Source: Tamilnaduibacter salinus (GTDB taxonomy: Bacteria; Pseudomonadota; Gammaproteobacteria; Pseudomonadales; Oleiphilaceae). Taken from it: 64,000 bases of DNA. Below are positions 38,405-58,412 of this stretch, piece after piece (positions within the stretch are counted from its first letter, which is position 1; each line of letters begins with the position of its first letter). Position numbers and translations under genes: made by a program. Under the pieces are notes generated by a model, which was given only the letters and a program-made list of their open reading frames with translations, ran no database searches and was not told where the DNA came from. The DNA lies in assembly GCF_003096655.1 (NCBI RefSeq), contig NZ_QEKQ01000005.1, positions 124,001 through 188,000 of the forward strand, written 5' to 3'.

Positions 38405-38859
38405 TTTATGAGGTTTATCGCGGATTAGCGTGATAGTACCTGTAGCCGATGTCTCCGACTTCGGAGTCGTCCGCAGGACGACCGGGTTTGCAGGCAAATT
38501 CCGGTCAACATACAAGGAGCAAGCTTGCTCGCGACCAATCCGACGGGCGAGGCCAGGTATTCGCATGAGATTGGTCGCTTGCAAGCAAGCACCTGCGGGC
38601 TGGGTCAGTCCTGTTGATCCGGCAGGCCTGACGGCCTGCTCCGAAGTCAGAGACATCGGCTACAGGTGCGGCACCGTTGGCATGACGACCTGCCGCTTCC
38701 TCTGCGTTTTCACGCGGATCGGCGAGAACGTTTAATGATGCTGGCCAGTCGAACAAAAAATCTGAACAACCCCACCATAACGTTTCGATTTTCCCGGGAG
38801 CGGAATGGGCGTTTAATAAAGGTCAGTGGAATCGGGGCTGTTCCCCGGGGAGGTGCGAA
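38252..38859. other. Intergenic region between prkB and the pirin gene
   Basis: About 610 bp without a gene. It carries the copy-2 repeat (38251-38404), a 230-bp nested palindromic element (38438-38667), and about 190 bp of AT-richer DNA before the pirin gene, where its promoter should lie (for example near 38815-38825, TTTAATAAAG). Confidence 0.7.
38438..38667. repeat. 230-bp element with 28-bp terminal inverted repeats enclosing REP-like palindromes
   Basis: Arms 38438-38465 and 38640-38667 are reverse complements at 27 of 28 positions. Inside lie a hairpin GTCGTCC-GCA-GGACGAC (38466-38482), a pair of inverted units meeting at GCGACCAATC (38531-38540) and GATTGGTCGC (38569-38578), and a hairpin GCAGGCC-TGAC-GGCCTGC (38622-38639). 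The inner units, with GGAGCAAGCTTGCTCGCGA, resemble Pseudomonas-type REP sequences arranged as a BIME. The whole can fold as a four-armed structure. Confidence 0.8.
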
Positions 38860-45972: not shown

Positions 45973-46758
45973 GTGGGACGATCTCGCCTGGCACGATTTC
46001 TACCGCGCAGATTCCTGGCGGTTCTTTTTGTCGGACTGTTGCTCCCGGGGTGGCTCTCCGCCGAGCCAGCTTCTCTGATCCGAATGGTGACGGGCAGTGA
46101 TTATCCGCCGTTTGCCGACAAAGCGATGCCCGGCCAGGGGATCGCCACGGAGCTGGTGCGAATGGTTTACCGTGAGCGCAATCAGCCCACCAAGCTGACG
46201 ATCACACCCTGGAACCGGGCGCTGAGGGATCTGAAGACAGGTCGGGCCGATGTGGCATTTCCGTTTGTTCCTTCCTTTGAACGTCATCGGGAATTCCTGT
46301 TCTCCGATCCGCTGTTCCATGTCCAGTCCACGATGTTTCGTCGCCACGACGACCACGCCTTCCCCGAATCGTTGGAGGCGCTATCCGACGTCCGTATCTG
46401 TCGTCCAACCGGCTATGCGCTCATCCCTCAGTTGCGATACCGGCTGCAAATGGACGAGATTGACTGGGTGCGTCCCCAGACCATGAAATCCTGTTTCAAT
46501 ATGCTGCGTCTGGACCGGGTGGACATGGTGCCGTCCAATCGCCGTACCGGCTGGTACACGATTGATCATTCCGGTATGGACCCGAGCCTTTTCGCCACTT
46601 GGCCGGTTTTTGAGGAGGAAACGGCGCTTTACCTTGTTGTCAGTCGGGATCATCCAGAGGCGAGACGGGTCGTCCGTGAATTCAACCAGACATTGCGGCA
46701 GGTCAGGGAAACCGAGGCGGGGCGGGCGTTGATCAATCGGTACCGGAGCCCGCACTAA
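45973..46758 (+). CDS. Periplasmic solute-binding protein, SBP_bac_3 family (first of a convergent pair)
   Basis: A 261-residue substrate-binding protein. The signal peptide is RSRLARFLPRRFLAVLFVGLLLPGWLSA from the GTG start at 45973, with AGGA 10 bases upstream; the frame is open to 45823 but without any similarity. The mature part begins SLIRMVTGSDYPPFADKAMPGQGIATELVRMV, the usual opening of this family, and has WNRALRDLKTGRADVAFPFVPS. No permease or ATPase genes adjoin it, so it may serve as a sensor or share a distant transporter. Its stop codon lies in an inverted repeat that also encodes the end of the opposing gene. Confidence 0.82.
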   Translation: MGRSRLARFLPRRFLAVLFVGLLLPGWLSAEPASLIRMVTGSDYPPFADKAMPGQGIATELVRMVYRERNQPTKLTITPWNRALRDLKTGRADVAFPFVPSFERHREFLFSDPLFHVQSTMFRRHDDHAFPESLEALSDVRICRPTGYALIPQLRYRLQMDEIDWVRPQTMKSCFNMLRLDRVDMVPSNRRTGWYTIDHSGMDPSLFATWPVFEEETALYLVVSRDHPEARRVVREFNQTLRQVRETEAGRALINRYRSPH

Positions 46759-47761
46759 GGAAGTGCTGATCCATTCCCGGAGCCAGAGGCATGCGGGAAT
46801 GGATCAGCACTTCCTTAACCGGGCTTCTGACGACGGACAGCCTGGACGTCTCCGCGGCAGCCCCTTTACCGTCATCCCGCCAGTCCTCAAGACCATAACG
46901 CGCCAGAATTGCGTCGAGGCGTCCGGACTCACGCAGCGTCACCATGCCGTCAGACAGAAGACTGGCGTGCCGGGCGGACTGGGGGAGTTCCGGTGAGAAG
47001 GCAACAAAGGCTCGTGTGGAAGGAAGACCGCCGGCGTCGCGAAGCGCTGGCAGGTCCGGGTTTTCCTGCCTCAGGAAGGTAAAGACCGCTCGTTCCTCAA
47101 CCAAAACATCGGCTCGGCCCTGTGCGACCAGTTGCGCGGCCCGGTCGAGTGGCGAGGGGCCTGACAGCACCCAGATCCGCTCCGGGTCCTCGCGGTGCTG
47201 CTGAATATAGGTATCAAGCAACGCTGTGTAGGAATAGTCGTTGATCACGACGAGTAACTGGTTGCTTAGAGAGGGCACCCCCTGGAATGACCAGTCATCG
47301 TCTGGGCGCTTGTAAAAATGTACGGTCGCCTGGCCCTGTTCATTCTCTGGAAAGACAAAGCCTGGGGCGTCTTCGTGATAGGCGCCGACGACGGCGTCCA
47401 GCTCTCCCGCGTTGACCAGTCTCAACGCCCGGGCCCAGCTGGTGTTCACATACTCCACCGTCAGACCGTGTGACTCGAACACTTCGCGTGCGATGTCGAT
47501 CATGTAGCCCTCGTGGTCGCTGCCGGCGGTGCAGTTATGCGGGCACCATGGGTCGGCGGCAATGGTGATCACATCGGGCCGGTTTTCCCCCACCGCGGCC
47601 TCCACTGCCGTCAGCGAAGCCCTTTTGTCGAGACCGGTCTCCCCTGCGAGGTCGGAGGCTGCAACCGCTGTAGCAGCCAGCATCAGCAGCGTGAGGCCGA
47701 GCAGCGGGGCACGTATCCGGTCAGACAGGAACAGGGCAGAGGCTGTCATCGCATCAATCAT
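46733..47761 (-). CDS. Periplasmic solute-binding protein, SBP_bac_3 family (second of a convergent pair)
   Basis: A 342-residue binding protein with a signal peptide ending near ATAVAA (residue about 35). The mature sequence has ITIAADPWCPHNCTAGSDHEGYMIDIAREVF, VNTSWARALRLVNAGELDAVVGAYHEDAPG and LVAQGRADVLVEERAVFTFLR, typical of the family. It differs greatly from the convergent gene, so it is no recent duplicate. The last 26 bp overlap the other gene's 3' end. Start could also be ATG 47749. Confidence 0.82.
   Translation of the reverse strand: MIDAMTASALFLSDRIRAPLLGLTLLMLAATAVAASDLAGETGLDKRASLTAVEAAVGENRPDVITIAADPWCPHNCTAGSDHEGYMIDIAREVFESHGLTVEYVNTSWARALRLVNAGELDAVVGAYHEDAPGFVFPENEQGQATVHFYKRPDDDWSFQGVPSLSNQLLVVINDYSYTALLDTYIQQHREDPERIWVLSGPSPLDRAAQLVAQGRADVLVEERAVFTFLRQENPDLPALRDAGGLPSTRAFVAFSPELPQSARHASLLSDGMVTLRESGRLDAILARYGLEDWRDDGKGAAAETSRLSVVRSPVKEVLIHSRMPLAPGMDQHFLSAGSGTD
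46756..46817. terminator. 24-bp perfect inverted repeat, probable bidirectional terminator
   Basis: Arms 46756-46779 and 46794-46817 (TAAGGAAGTGCTGATCCATT and onward, 24 bases each) are perfect reverse complements with a 14-base loop. The first arm starts with the TAA stop of the plus-strand gene; the whole repeat lies inside the coding end of the minus-strand gene. No T-run follows. Confidence 0.7.
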
Positions 47762-55050: not shown

Positions 55051-57140
55051 TGGATTCCGAAGCCCTCGTTCGCCCCGGCGTCGGTCGGGTTGAAAGTGTG
55101 CAGGCACTGCTCGATGCCTGGGTCGGCGCCGGTTGGCTGCGGGCACTGGATCGGTCGCTGGCGTGTTTCCTGTTGGATGAAGTAGACGGGGAACTGCCGC
55201 CCCTGACGATGCTGGCCGTCGCCCTCGTGTCCCATCAGGTGGGGCGGGGGCATGTGTGTCTGGATCTTTCGGGACTGGTGGCCGGTCGGGCGGATGATGT
55301 GTTGGCCTTGCCGCCGGAGGCGGCCGGCGTCAGCGATGGGGTTCCGGCCCCTTCGTCGGTGCTGGCGGGCGTTTCGGAGGCGGACTGGCAGGCGGTGCTC
55401 ACCGCCGTGCCCTCGGTCATTGGCACCGGGGAAGGGCGAACGCCGTTGGTATTGGCGGCCAATCGCCTCTACCTGCGCCGCTACTGGCAGTACGAGCAGA
55501 CGATCGCAGCGGGGATTCGGTCCCGTCTGACGCCGGTCGAGGATTTGTCCGATCCGGAGGGGGCCGCGGCCCGGGCGTTGGCCGCCACGCTGGGGACTCT
55601 CTTCCATACGCCGACGGACAGTCTGGACTGGCAACGACTGGCCTGCGGGCTTGCCGCCCGGACGTTGTTCAGCATCATTACGGGCGGTCCCGGCACCGGG
55701 AAGACCACGACCGTCCTGCGTCTGCTGGCGGCCCTTCAGTCGGTCGAGCAGGCAACCACCGGCGCTCCCGGACTGCGTATCCGACTGGCCGCACCGACGG
55801 GCAAGGCCGCCGCGCGGCTTGGCGACTCCATCGTTGGCAAGCGGGACGAGCTGCGAGAGGTCGGCCTGCCCGGTGGCGATGCACTGGTCGACAGCCTGCC
55901 GGACCGGGTCACTACCCTGCACCGGCTGTTGGGGAGCCGGCCGGGCACCCGCCAGTTTCGCCACAACCGGGATCATCCCCTGCCACTGGATGTACTGGTG
56001 ATCGACGAAGCGTCCATGGTGGATGTGGAAATGATGGCCTGCGTGTTCGACGCGCTGCCGCCATCGGCCCGTATCATTCTGCTGGGCGATAAGGATCAGC
56101 TCGCCTCCGTGGACGCTGGCGCGGTGCTGGGCGACCTGTGTCGCCGGGCCGACGGCGCGCATTACCGGGCGGATACGGCACAGTGGCTGGCTGCTGTGAC
56201 CGGGCAGGCGCCGGGGGATGAATGGCTGGATCAGCAGGGCGCTGAATTGGATCAGGCGGTCGCCATGCTAAGGGTCAGTCACCGCTTTGGTGCGGACAGC
56301 GGCATCGGCGCGCTGTCGCAGGCGGTGAATGGTGCGGGGCTGGACCGGGGGACTGCGGCGCCCTTCCGGGAAGGGCGCTGGCCGGACATTGCCTGGCACC
56401 CCGTCAATGCCTCCTCGATCGGTGCGACCCTGTCCCGGCACGTGCTCGACGGCTCACCGTCCCTGTTCGGCAGAACGGATACCCCATCCGATGCGGCTGG
56501 CGGCTATCGCAGCTACCTGATGCGCATGGCCGAGCGCCCGTCGGCCGAGGATCGTGAGACGCTGGATGCCTGGGCCGCCAATGTCCTGTCGGCGTTTGAC
56601 CGCTTTCAGGTCCTCTGCGCACTGAGAGGCGGGCGCTTTGGCGTTGAGGGGCTGAACGAGACCATCGCCGGCGCGTTGCAGCGGGCGGGGCTGATCGAGC
56701 GAACCCACGGCTGGTACGCGGGTCGCCCGGTGCTGGTCACCCGCAATGATTACAATCTGGGGCTGATGAACGGCGACATTGGTGTGACCCTGCCGGTGCC
56801 CTGGGGGCGACCCGATTCGCCCGGCGATGTCCTGCGCGTCGCCTTTCCCTCCGGCGACAGCCCGACCGGCGTGCGCTGGGTATCACCCAGCCGGTTGCAG
56901 TCGGTGGAGACGGTGTACGCGATGACGGTCCATAAATCCCAGGGGTCGGAGTTCCACCACACCTGTCTGGTGGTACCCGACCGCCGCAATCCGGTGCTCA
57001 CGCGGGAATTGCTATACACCGGGATCACCCGGGCCAGTCGCTGGTTCAGTCTGATGGTGCCGGATGAACGGGTGCTCCTGGAGGCGACCGGGGAGCGGGT
57101 GATGCGGACTTCTGGGTTGGCGTCTCTGGTGCATCTGTGA
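55047..57140 (+). CDS. recD: Exodeoxyribonuclease V, alpha subunit
   Basis: The 5'-3' helicase subunit of RecBCD. It is 697 residues. The Walker A motif is TGGPGTGKTTTVLR with K219, and Walker B is LDVLVIDEASMVDVEMM; LLGDKDQLASVDAGAVLGDL, TVHKSQGSEFHHTCLV and TRELLYTGITRAS complete the motor. The N-terminal 200 residues form the RecB-contacting region. ATG 55047 overlaps the recB stop. The 588 bp beyond are filled with nested palindromes. Confidence 0.97.
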   Translation: MMDSEALVRPGVGRVESVQALLDAWVGAGWLRALDRSLACFLLDEVDGELPPLTMLAVALVSHQVGRGHVCLDLSGLVAGRADDVLALPPEAAGVSDGVPAPSSVLAGVSEADWQAVLTAVPSVIGTGEGRTPLVLAANRLYLRRYWQYEQTIAAGIRSRLTPVEDLSDPEGAAARALAATLGTLFHTPTDSLDWQRLACGLAARTLFSIITGGPGTGKTTTVLRLLAALQSVEQATTGAPGLRIRLAAPTGKAAARLGDSIVGKRDELREVGLPGGDALVDSLPDRVTTLHRLLGSRPGTRQFRHNRDHPLPLDVLVIDEASMVDVEMMACVFDALPPSARIILLGDKDQLASVDAGAVLGDLCRRADGAHYRADTAQWLAAVTGQAPGDEWLDQQGAELDQAVAMLRVSHRFGADSGIGALSQAVNGAGLDRGTAAPFREGRWPDIAWHPVNASSIGATLSRHVLDGSPSLFGRTDTPSDAAGGYRSYLMRMAERPSAEDRETLDAWAANVLSAFDRFQVLCALRGGRFGVEGLNETIAGALQRAGLIERTHGWYAGRPVLVTRNDYNLGLMNGDIGVTLPVPWGRPDSPGDVLRVAFPSGDSPTGVRWVSPSRLQSVETVYAMTVHKSQGSEFHHTCLVVPDRRNPVLTRELLYTGITRASRWFSLMVPDERVLLEATGERVMRTSGLASLVHL

Positions 57141-57217
57141 GCTTGGGATTCGGGGTGTCGGGAGGGTGATTCGTTTCAAAAACCGCCCGCAAGTACGTCC
57201 CTGTAGGGCTTGAGTCC

Positions 57218-57483
57218 AGTGTCCTGTCTGGCTCATTCGCTGATCGCCTGCGCGTCGCTGACGGTTCTGGACAAGGCGCCGGACCGCAGGCGGGGTTATT
57301 CCCCGTCAAGGGATGGCAACGCAGGCCCAGAGCCGTCAGCGACGCGCCCGTCGGGAGCCCCTGAGAGTACAGATAGCCGCGTTGCGCTGACTCGATTTGG
57401 AACCACCAAACCTTCGCCATCGCGCCTTGCTCTCAGTACTCTCAGGGGCTCAGGCGATCAGCGAATGAGCCAGACAGGGCACT
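57218..57483. mobile_element. 266-bp MITE-like element with 33-bp terminal inverted repeats and two internal stems
   Basis: The arms 57218-57250 and 57451-57483 are reverse complements at 32 of 33 positions. Inside, 57250-57270 pairs with 57327-57347 (20 of 21), and 57355-57370 pairs with 57436-57451 (16 of 16), so the whole folds into a three-way junction. The second stem carries the GCGTTGCGC (57379-57387) and GCGCCTTG (57422-57429) core shared with the elements behind engB and prkB. No open frame of useful size and no clear target duplication are seen. Calling it mobile is inference from its position inside another repeat. Confidence 0.6.
57355..57451. repeat. GCGTTGCGC / GCGCCTTG core element (copy 3, diverged centre)
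   Basis: Perfect 16-bp arms GAGCCCCTGAGAGTAC and its complement enclose GCGTTGCGC, a small hairpin TTTGG-AACCA-CCAAA and GCGCCTTG. The order equals copies 1 and 2, but the CTCACCTACC block is replaced. It forms one arm of the larger element. Confidence 0.65.
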
Positions 57484-57577
57484 AACCTTCCCTGGCCAGG
57501 CTGCATTTTTGACCCCAATCAGCACCCCGACACCCCGTTAGAGTCCACTCGTGCCTGAGATACCAACCAAGTTCGAC

Positions 57578-57697
57578 GCGGCTGCTGGGAGGTTTGTTGA
57601 GCTCAAAAATGCAGCATGGCCTGGACGGCCATGCTCAAGCCGCACATGGACGTGCTTGCAGGCGGTTTTTGAGCTCAACAAACCTCCCAGCAGCCGC
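57578..57697. repeat. 120-bp palindromic repeat, intact copy, 32-bp perfect arms
   Basis: Arms 57578-57609 and 57666-57697 are perfect reverse complements over 32 bp (GCGGCTGCTGGGAGGTTTGT and onward). Inside are hairpins GCATGGCC-TGGAC-GGCCATGC (57614-57634) and GCAC-ATGGAC-GTGC (57642-57655). It lies in inverted orientation to the interrupted copy at 57151-57537, with different outer arms but the same core. It ends 32 bp before the sirtuin start and could influence that mRNA leader. Confidence 0.85.
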
Positions 57698-57728
57698 TCC
57701 CCCAATGTTGGAGAGCATAGGAGGCAGG

Positions 57729-58412
57729 ATGAAACACCACATCGTCGTCATCACCGGCGCCGGCATCAGCGCCGAAAGCGGCCTGTCCACGTTCCGCGAT
57801 AACGGTGGCCTCTGGGAGCAGGTCCGCCTCGAAGACGTGGCCACACCGGACGCCTTCGAACGCGATCCCGAGCGCGTGCTGTCGTTCTACAACCACCGTC
57901 GCCAGCAGCTCCGGGATGCCGAACCCAACGACGCCCATCGCGGCCTGGCGGAGCTGGAAGAGCGCTACCGCGTCTCGGTGGTCACCCAGAACGTGGACGA
58001 CCTGCACGAGCGCGCCGGTTCGTCCAACGTGCTTCATCTGCACGGAAAACTGACCCAGGCGCGGGGCGCCGCTCACCCCGAGCCGGTCTACGAGATCGGC
58101 TATCGTGACATCTCCCCCGGCGACACCTGCGAGCGGGGCACCCCCCTGCGGCCCAACGTCGTCTGGTTCGGGGAAGAGGTTCCCATGATGGGGCCCGCCG
58201 CCGAAACCGTCGCCACCGCCGATCATCTGCTGGTCATCGGCACCTCCCTGCAGGTGTACCCTGCGGCCGGGCTGGTCAGCCTCGCCGAACCGGGGATTCC
58301 CGTCACCGTGATCGACCCGGCCGCCGTGGAAGCGGTACCCGGCGCCCACGCCATCCGAAAGACGGCCACCGAAGGGCTGCGTGAGTGGATCGACCGACTT
58401 GGCGATACTTGA
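57729..58412 (+). CDS. NAD-dependent sirtuin deacylase, class III type without zinc cysteines
   Basis: Removes acyl groups from lysines using NAD. It is 227 residues from ATG 57729 with AGGAGG upstream. NAD-site motifs are ITGAGISAESGLSTFRDNGGLW, TQNVDDLHERAG (86-90 TQNVD) and the catalytic H105 in HLHG. Y54 and R57 (FYNHRR) are the class III residues that favour succinyl/malonyl groups. The zinc-ribbon cysteines are absent: the region LTQARGAAHPEPVYEIGYRDISPGDTCERG holds only one. So it is CobB-like, but of a zinc-free subgroup. Confidence 0.9.
   Translation: MKHHIVVITGAGISAESGLSTFRDNGGLWEQVRLEDVATPDAFERDPERVLSFYNHRRQQLRDAEPNDAHRGLAELEERYRVSVVTQNVDDLHERAGSSNVLHLHGKLTQARGAAHPEPVYEIGYRDISPGDTCERGTPLRPNVVWFGEEVPMMGPAAETVATADHLLVIGTSLQVYPAAGLVSLAEPGIPVTVIDPAAVEAVPGAHAIRKTATEGLREWIDRLGDT

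Follow-up and report, generated by a model that had tools for sequence, protein, structure and literature searches.

How one palindromic repeat came to be cut in two by another inverted repeat is the question raised by a locus of Tamilnaduibacter salinus. The window, meaning the whole 64,000-nucleotide stretch of DNA that was analyzed, contains two related palindromic repeats in opposite orientation between recD (57140 being its last base and 55047 its first; forward strand; PF21185 RecD_N match) and a gene of the Sir2 family (57729-58412, forward strand; PF02146 match). The best RecD matches in named genomes came mostly from Marinobacter, at 50-58% identity, and the nearest records are possibly absent from the collection. 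The repeat closer to the Sir2-family gene (57578-57697, reverse strand) is uninterrupted and consists of a 56-nt core within perfectly paired 32-bp arms (57578-57609 and 57666-57697, 100% complementary). The other repeat lies on the forward strand in two parts. Its 5' part (57151-57218) holds an outer arm (57151-57182), the first small hairpin and the start of the second, and its 3' part (57483-57537) holds the remainder of the second small hairpin and the other outer arm (57506-57537). The 264 bp between them (57219-57482, forward strand) are a small, gene-less transposon that inserted into one of the paired repeats. The explanation that best accounts for both elements together, to which we assign a probability of roughly 0.75, is that a non-autonomous MITE entered an existing palindrome by ordinary DNA transposition at a CTAR word, with duplication of TA or CTAG.

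Sequence comparison within the window recovered, in place, every feature that the initial annotation had named. The 12-bp outer arms of the split repeat pair exactly, and pairing extends over 32 nt at 81% (57151-57182 with 57506-57537); an exact 12-bp terminal pairing at a spacing of 387 nt occurs at one of 63,613 window positions, namely 57151-57537. The flanks are the two halves of the intact repeat, as had been proposed, and they stand in order once the intact repeat, which is an inverted copy, is flipped: 57153-57214 is 76% identical to the reverse complement of 57634-57695, and 57491-57535 is 73% identical to that of 57580-57624. Nine bases (57625-57633) separate the halves in the intact repeat versus 276 in the split copy. 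A palindrome model (R1) was built from 19 copies, two of them from the own genome and others from the relatives searched; these match by construction. R1 matched the split copy at 57181-57237 (forward) and the uninterrupted copy, itself among the 19, at 57598-57677 (reverse, 69.2 bits); apart from these two copies, the 64-kb window gave one weak match (E = 0.076).

The boundaries of the inserted element were set by alignment to other copies. It starts with GTGTCC and finishes with GGCAC, its end sequence being GTGTCCCGTCTGGTTAATTC, and its terminal inverted repeats lie at 57219-57253 (forward) and 57448-57482 (reverse). The inner inverted repeat had been given as 33 bp; its presence was borne out, whereas its length came to 36 nt at 94% (57218-57253 and 57448-57483), i.e. 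about 35 bp. Two internal hairpins, A (57250-57347, 21-nt arms) and B (57355-57451, 23-nt arms), lie inside it. The element is thus short (<300 bp), non-coding with no coding capacity recognized, present in multiple copies of fixed size and bounded by terminal inverted repeats, which are properties expected of a MITE, and it is best read as a new member of this known kind. The region had 55 matches in the own genome, mostly to the MITE alone, the best of them showing 78-85% identity over nearly the full length. Its terminal repeat gave 46 matches there (22 + 24) at up to three mismatches, and the reversed pattern gave none. Twenty two-ended copies were measured in the own genome, of which 16 are exactly 264 bp long and the other four span 108-194 bp; two diverged own copies (L015 and L020) exceed the mismatch limit of the end pairing and are outside the 20. 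Copies of the same size also occur in relatives, and 51 of the 151 genomes of the family, the own genome included, had a MITE match, while plasmids gave no match to the window region. Eight loci of relatives (L101, L104, L114, L116, L118, L120, L126 and L128) carry palindromes of 38-53 bp that contain little beyond two MITE ends, several of them with CTA...TAG flanks. At the own loci L004, L011, L077 and L082, a different palindromic element directly adjoins MITE copies or single ends; on its outer side it terminates in CTAGGAGTCTGCGCGG or a close variant, as though a single CTAG served the two.

The flanks of the 264-bp copies in the own genome point to a short target word. CTA on the left together with TAG on the right was found in 12 of the 16 copies, and TAG on the right in 14. 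These flanks are compatible with duplication of a 2-bp TA or a 4-bp CTAG, or with being part of the element; CTAG occurs five times in the 64-kb window versus 218 expected from base composition, and with a word this rare CTA and TAG might belong to the MITE rather than to its target. A CTAG is contained in one of 94 palindrome units. The copy in the split palindrome is flanked by CCA and TAA, which no longer match each other, so that we infer its target duplication from the other copies: the left CA (57217-57218) is presumably a decayed TA and the right TA (57483-57484) its presumed counterpart. A search for an empty orthologous MITE site, from which the length of the duplication could be read, found none.

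The core of other palindrome copies forms two small hairpins above the outer stem. Alignment places the insertion point within the 5' arm of the second hairpin, a few bases from the hairpin base and not in the loop. The initial annotation had one palindrome inserted into the tip of another; the insertion stands, but a placement exactly at the hairpin apex overstates the case. With the MITE removed, the second small hairpin of the split copy folds only partly. If one 2-nt flank is removed as well, 20 nt remain between CTTGAG and CTGCA versus 19 in the partner copy (manual count), which indicates that little or nothing was lost at insertion; the restored core reads TCTAACC... when the right TA is kept and TCCAACC... 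when the left CA is kept.

Among 55 loci, a palindrome lacking the MITE lies directly 3' of recD at L130, L143, L145, L147, L152, L153, L154, L167 and, weakly, L137, several of these copies being in Marinobacter genomes, and L152 shows the same pair of a forward and a reverse copy after recD. The next gene in these relatives differs from that of the window, so the correspondence is one of placement with respect to recD and does not amount to proven orthology of the sites. At L154 and L143 the palindrome arms just after recD overlap its end and apparently also the end of the convergent neighbor, and the gene ends therefore change together with the arms. The proposed course of events is that the pre-existing repeat sat downstream of recD and that the 264-bp MITE entered this repeat at a CTAR word, within the 5' arm of the core's second small hairpin, where it would have duplicated TA in the manner of IS630/Tc1-mariner elements or CTAG in the manner of the IS5 group. 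The type of transposase and the length of the duplication are both presumed in this scheme, and the target word, not the hairpin, would have been recognized.

The MITE flanks would fit either an IS630/Tc1-mariner or an IS5-like element, the latter by analogy with MITEPsy1. A preference for TA within CTAG was reportedly described by Tenzen and Ohtsubo in 1991. The present family and IS630/Tc1-mariner would have in common a duplicated TA and a preference for TA within CTAG, with the duplication presumed here; the two differ in that no DDE_3 transposase was found in the own genome. Duplication of TA by IS630/Tc1-mariner elements is described in part of PMC2170065. MITEPsy1 of Pseudomonas syringae, as portrayed in sections of PMC3189936, is 100 bp long with 18-nt ends and inserts at CTAG or YTAA with a 4-nt duplication. 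Both MITEs are small and non-autonomous and have terminal inverted repeats and a CTAG-type target, but the present one measures 264 bp and has ends of about 35 nt and of another sequence, with a presumed duplication of 2 or 4 nt. No transposase with MITE-like ends was found among the families PF01609 and PF13358 in the own genome or at the loci with end matches. The own genome has no PF13358 (DDE_3) gene and one PF01609 gene (DDE_Tnp_1), with ends unlike those of the MITE; this gene (L245, own contig 1 near 308280) is an open frame of 460 aa whose 19-bp inverted repeats bear no relation to the MITE. A search for an autonomous partner, covering ends 450-4500 bp away in 40 loci, gave pairs whose weaker end mismatched at 6 or 7 of 20 positions in all cases but one. 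The exception, L263 (2 + 4 end mismatches), was rejected as an autonomous element, the enclosed open frames looking like ordinary genes by eye. A scan of 15 loci of relatives revealed no autonomous relative beside the end matches. Given this negative result, the MITE may derive from either an IS630/Tc1-mariner or an IS5-like element and may be stranded in the own genome.

A second way to arrive inside a palindrome is a transposition route that prefers hairpins, as raised by the initial annotation, or cruciforms, with the folded palindrome forming part of the target. Copies were scored as lying inside a palindrome if a stem spanning the insertion point reached a score of at least 12. Two of the 20 two-ended own copies did so, the split copy (score 14) and L006 (score 16), which sits in a REP-like palindrome. 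The diverged copies L015 and L020 scored 12 and 17; they were noticed only on re-checking, after the fact, and are counted as one case since they share one repeated unit. The stem there is placed asymmetrically around the element, at 12 nt on one side and 50 nt on the other. The flanks of this repeated unit pair as ACCGGCTGGT.GTCATTGCC, which is another nested arrangement. Among relatives, none of 38 testable copies (21 + 17; L056 was left out with its 3-nt right flank, and three of the 20 later loci repeated earlier ones) lay inside a palindrome, the highest score being 8. Elsewhere in the window, a larger inverted repeat with 36-nt arms (38438-38667) surrounds a REP-like palindrome (38515-38594) that resembles the joined MITE flanks of L006 (72% over 83 nt), and positions 46756-46817 form a perfect 24-bp inverted repeat around a 14-nt loop.

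The choice of control matters for reading these counts. A first control in redundant, repeat-rich loci (35 of 1,500 positions and 3 of 93 CTAG sites) gave too high a background. Fairer controls gave 3 of 1,500 for window positions, 6 of 1,500 for other stretches of the own genome and 0 of 59 for non-redundant own CTAG sites. An intergenic control gave 52 of 2,500 (about 2%), with a background raised by some positions beside MITE pieces. Two of 20 corresponds to p = 0.0007 against unselected window positions and p = 0.003 against the other own stretches. Against the intergenic control, p is 0.06 for two of 20, 0.009 for three of 21 and 0.12 for three of 59 when relatives are pooled. Own MITE members are thus found inside palindromes more often than fair controls, and the hairpin may matter; a mild preference for palindromes is possible in the own genome, whereas relatives give no such sign.

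Two Marinobacter palindrome copies also speak for hairpins as targets, as their apical hairpins carry palindrome-containing expansions of about 80-90 nt (L144:5177-5373 and L133:5172-5368, with 0 and 2 stem mismatches). The expansions are apparently unrelated to the MITE: the insert of L144 had no match among the sequences compared, and that of L133 shows no MITE ends by eye. Apical hairpins of the palindrome family have gained palindromic DNA more than once, but insertions into stems would escape the search, so that a hotspot does not follow. Published cases of elements inside palindromes point the same way. Several IS are described, in the portion of Tobes and Pareja 2006 (PMC1525189) consulted, as inserting specifically into REP sequences, likewise a transposable element within an extragenic palindromic repeat; those IS are specific for REP, whereas most MITE copies here lie outside palindromes. 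REP dimers inside longer palindromes are reported for A. variabilis, H. neapolitanus and T. roseum (PMC3733652, in part) and resemble the present locus in their nested palindromes and their dimers in opposite orientation. The outer palindromes in those passages fit a consensus, but in the present family no two of the copies compared had the same outer stem. CTA...TAG flanks are a stronger and commoner rule than location in a hairpin and suffice for most copies, and at the present locus the insertion lies in a stem arm. Hairpin-directed transposition is therefore an unlikely explanation, given also the absence of such cases in relatives and the late discovery and lopsided stem of L015 and L020; landing inside the palindrome is most simply ascribed to the short target word.

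On-site formation of the inner inverted repeat, whether through template switching or through copying of a folded single strand with no transposition, is very improbable. Strong palindromic character is common to both elements and the outer one bears signs of template switching, but the insert has ends and a size typical of a dispersed family, together with 78-85% identity to own copies in its best matches, which largely refutes this reading. The suggestion of copying during single-stranded folding is thus unneeded for the inner element, although it explains the outer palindrome arms well. Still less credible is a composite element evolving and moving as one block (57151-57537): its outer arms pair at 81%, but it is refuted by the MITE matches elsewhere, which never coincide with palindrome matches. 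Searched separately, MITE and palindrome were each found apart in the own genome and in relatives, and among the seven R1 matches in the own genome at E≤1, which include the split copy, this copy is the only one that coincides with a MITE match. Transposition of a MITE into an existing palindrome remains the preferred reading.

The host palindrome belongs to a dispersed family. R1 matched 14 of 38 genomes, the own genome included, at E≤0.01, with up to 122 matches in one genome (no more than 124 candidates were scored per genome), and 44 of 274 genomes of the class, or 39 of 222 genera, at E≤1e-6 with stricter filters. Comparison of a palindrome copy with other sequences gave one weak Halomonas match. 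At R1-match loci, a forward copy is followed by a reverse copy within about 350 bp in 13 cases (five of them fetched because the pair was visible beforehand) and the reverse order occurs once; the pair in the window follows the common order. The literature searched contained no description of the family that we saw, which is no proof of absence. Rfam returned five matches for window positions 56900-57900, all below the gathering threshold, and tRNA only for 15 palindrome loci. GTAG- or CGTC-tagged REP sequences, given in part of PMC3733652 as small palindromes of 20-40 bp with an unpaired tag at one end, were considered and rejected: the unit here is about 110-120 bp, and its CGTC lies inside an apical hairpin and is not an end tag. 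A role as gene terminator finds at most a weak 3'-end preference in 42 copies (14 convergent, 21 tandem and 7 divergent by crude open-frame calls).

What sets the family apart is its outer stem of about 28 bp, which surrounds the two-hairpin core with good to near-perfect pairing and a private sequence in each copy. The 108 R1 matches yielded 96 listed and 94 distinct copies after eleven presumed repeats and the split copy were left out; one of the omitted loci, L150, is really a near-identical copy of another species. The 94 copies are not all independent, because orthologous copies of related species are included. The A1 sequences were chosen by an exact 12-mer stem match and R1 searches favor paired stems, so that covariation in the 12 modelled stem pairs is partly built in. 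The claim of private paired arms is for this reason based on positions outside the model and on comparisons between species. Outside the model, at offsets -15 to -1, the arms pair in 1,282 of 1,410 cells (91%), or in 81-97% of copies per position, and pairing falls to background beyond about -19. At many of these outer positions the chance that two copies have the same base is only about 30%, -6 and -5 being conserved. All 89 copies compared have different arms, five of the 94 with more than eight mismatches being left out. Of the 25 stem positions, 12 belong to the model. Among the 2,225 stem cells of these 89 copies there are 2,156 Watson-Crick pairs; G.U pairs number 7 when one strand is read and 32 when the other is. 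The rarity of wobble pairs speaks against ordinary RNA structure conservation as the only cause of the stem, but the strand asymmetry still allows it some part.

Two sites shared between species, with 12 species pairs having arms of equal length, allowed arm changes to be followed. Between the arms of L154 and L144 there are two double and no single changes, between those of L154 and L153 eight double changes and two single ones, and between those of L150 and L143 one double and no single change, while L144-L143 and L145-L167 show a single change only. Most arm differences between species are thus paired double changes. At both sites the core lies in either orientation, depending on the species, a pattern that might also result from independent insertions. 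Between inverted repeats, template switching is reported to homogenize the arms and invert the spacer (PMC8604942, in part) and to be able to create compensatory double changes (PMC8794818, in part). These three features match the palindrome family, although the portions of these studies consulted concern yeast coding DNA and RNA genes, respectively, and not a dispersed bacterial repeat with a conserved core. Template switching is the likeliest cause of the arm pattern; selection on pairing is a rival. Insertion of the core into existing hairpins was considered at one shared site, where L130 has a plain 15-bp hairpin in place of the full repeat carried by others, and where L145 and L131 are shorter. 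This reading was not used, since a central deletion of the palindrome fits equally.

The split copy may offer a glimpse of what happens when the arms are moved apart. It has 6 mismatches in 25 stem positions, versus 0, 0, 0, 2, 3 and 4 in six intact own copies. Among the 94 palindrome copies, 89 have up to four mismatches and five have at least nine; the latter, among them L154 near 7126 with shifted or mismatched arms, have normal short cores, which shows that close arms are not always kept matched. The outer stem may have decayed after the insertion, when its arms, now 323 bases apart, would have lost homogenization by template switching. That distance stops homogenization is predicted by the model, and the one split copy fits but cannot prove it. 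A wider scheme can be put forward tentatively, at somewhat less than even odds: an unnamed repeat family, present in many families of the class, would have a conserved two-hairpin core that rewrites its own arms by fold-back synthesis, giving each copy a private and nearly perfect stem of constant length (about 28 bp), and that can flip, and the MITE insertion would have acted as a knock-out that ended the rewriting by separating the arms, after which the stem decayed.

The nested insertion adds one more case of a mobile element inside a palindromic repeat. Its location near the apex can arise from a short target word, and the question of a palindrome preference is testable. The host palindrome family, with arms that differ in every copy compared, is of more interest than the insertion. 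In stems of this kind, covariation alone would not demonstrate a functional RNA. The private self-complementary arms, paired double changes and both core orientations of the family would provide a means to measure the rate at which template switching rewrites bacterial inverted repeats from genomes alone.
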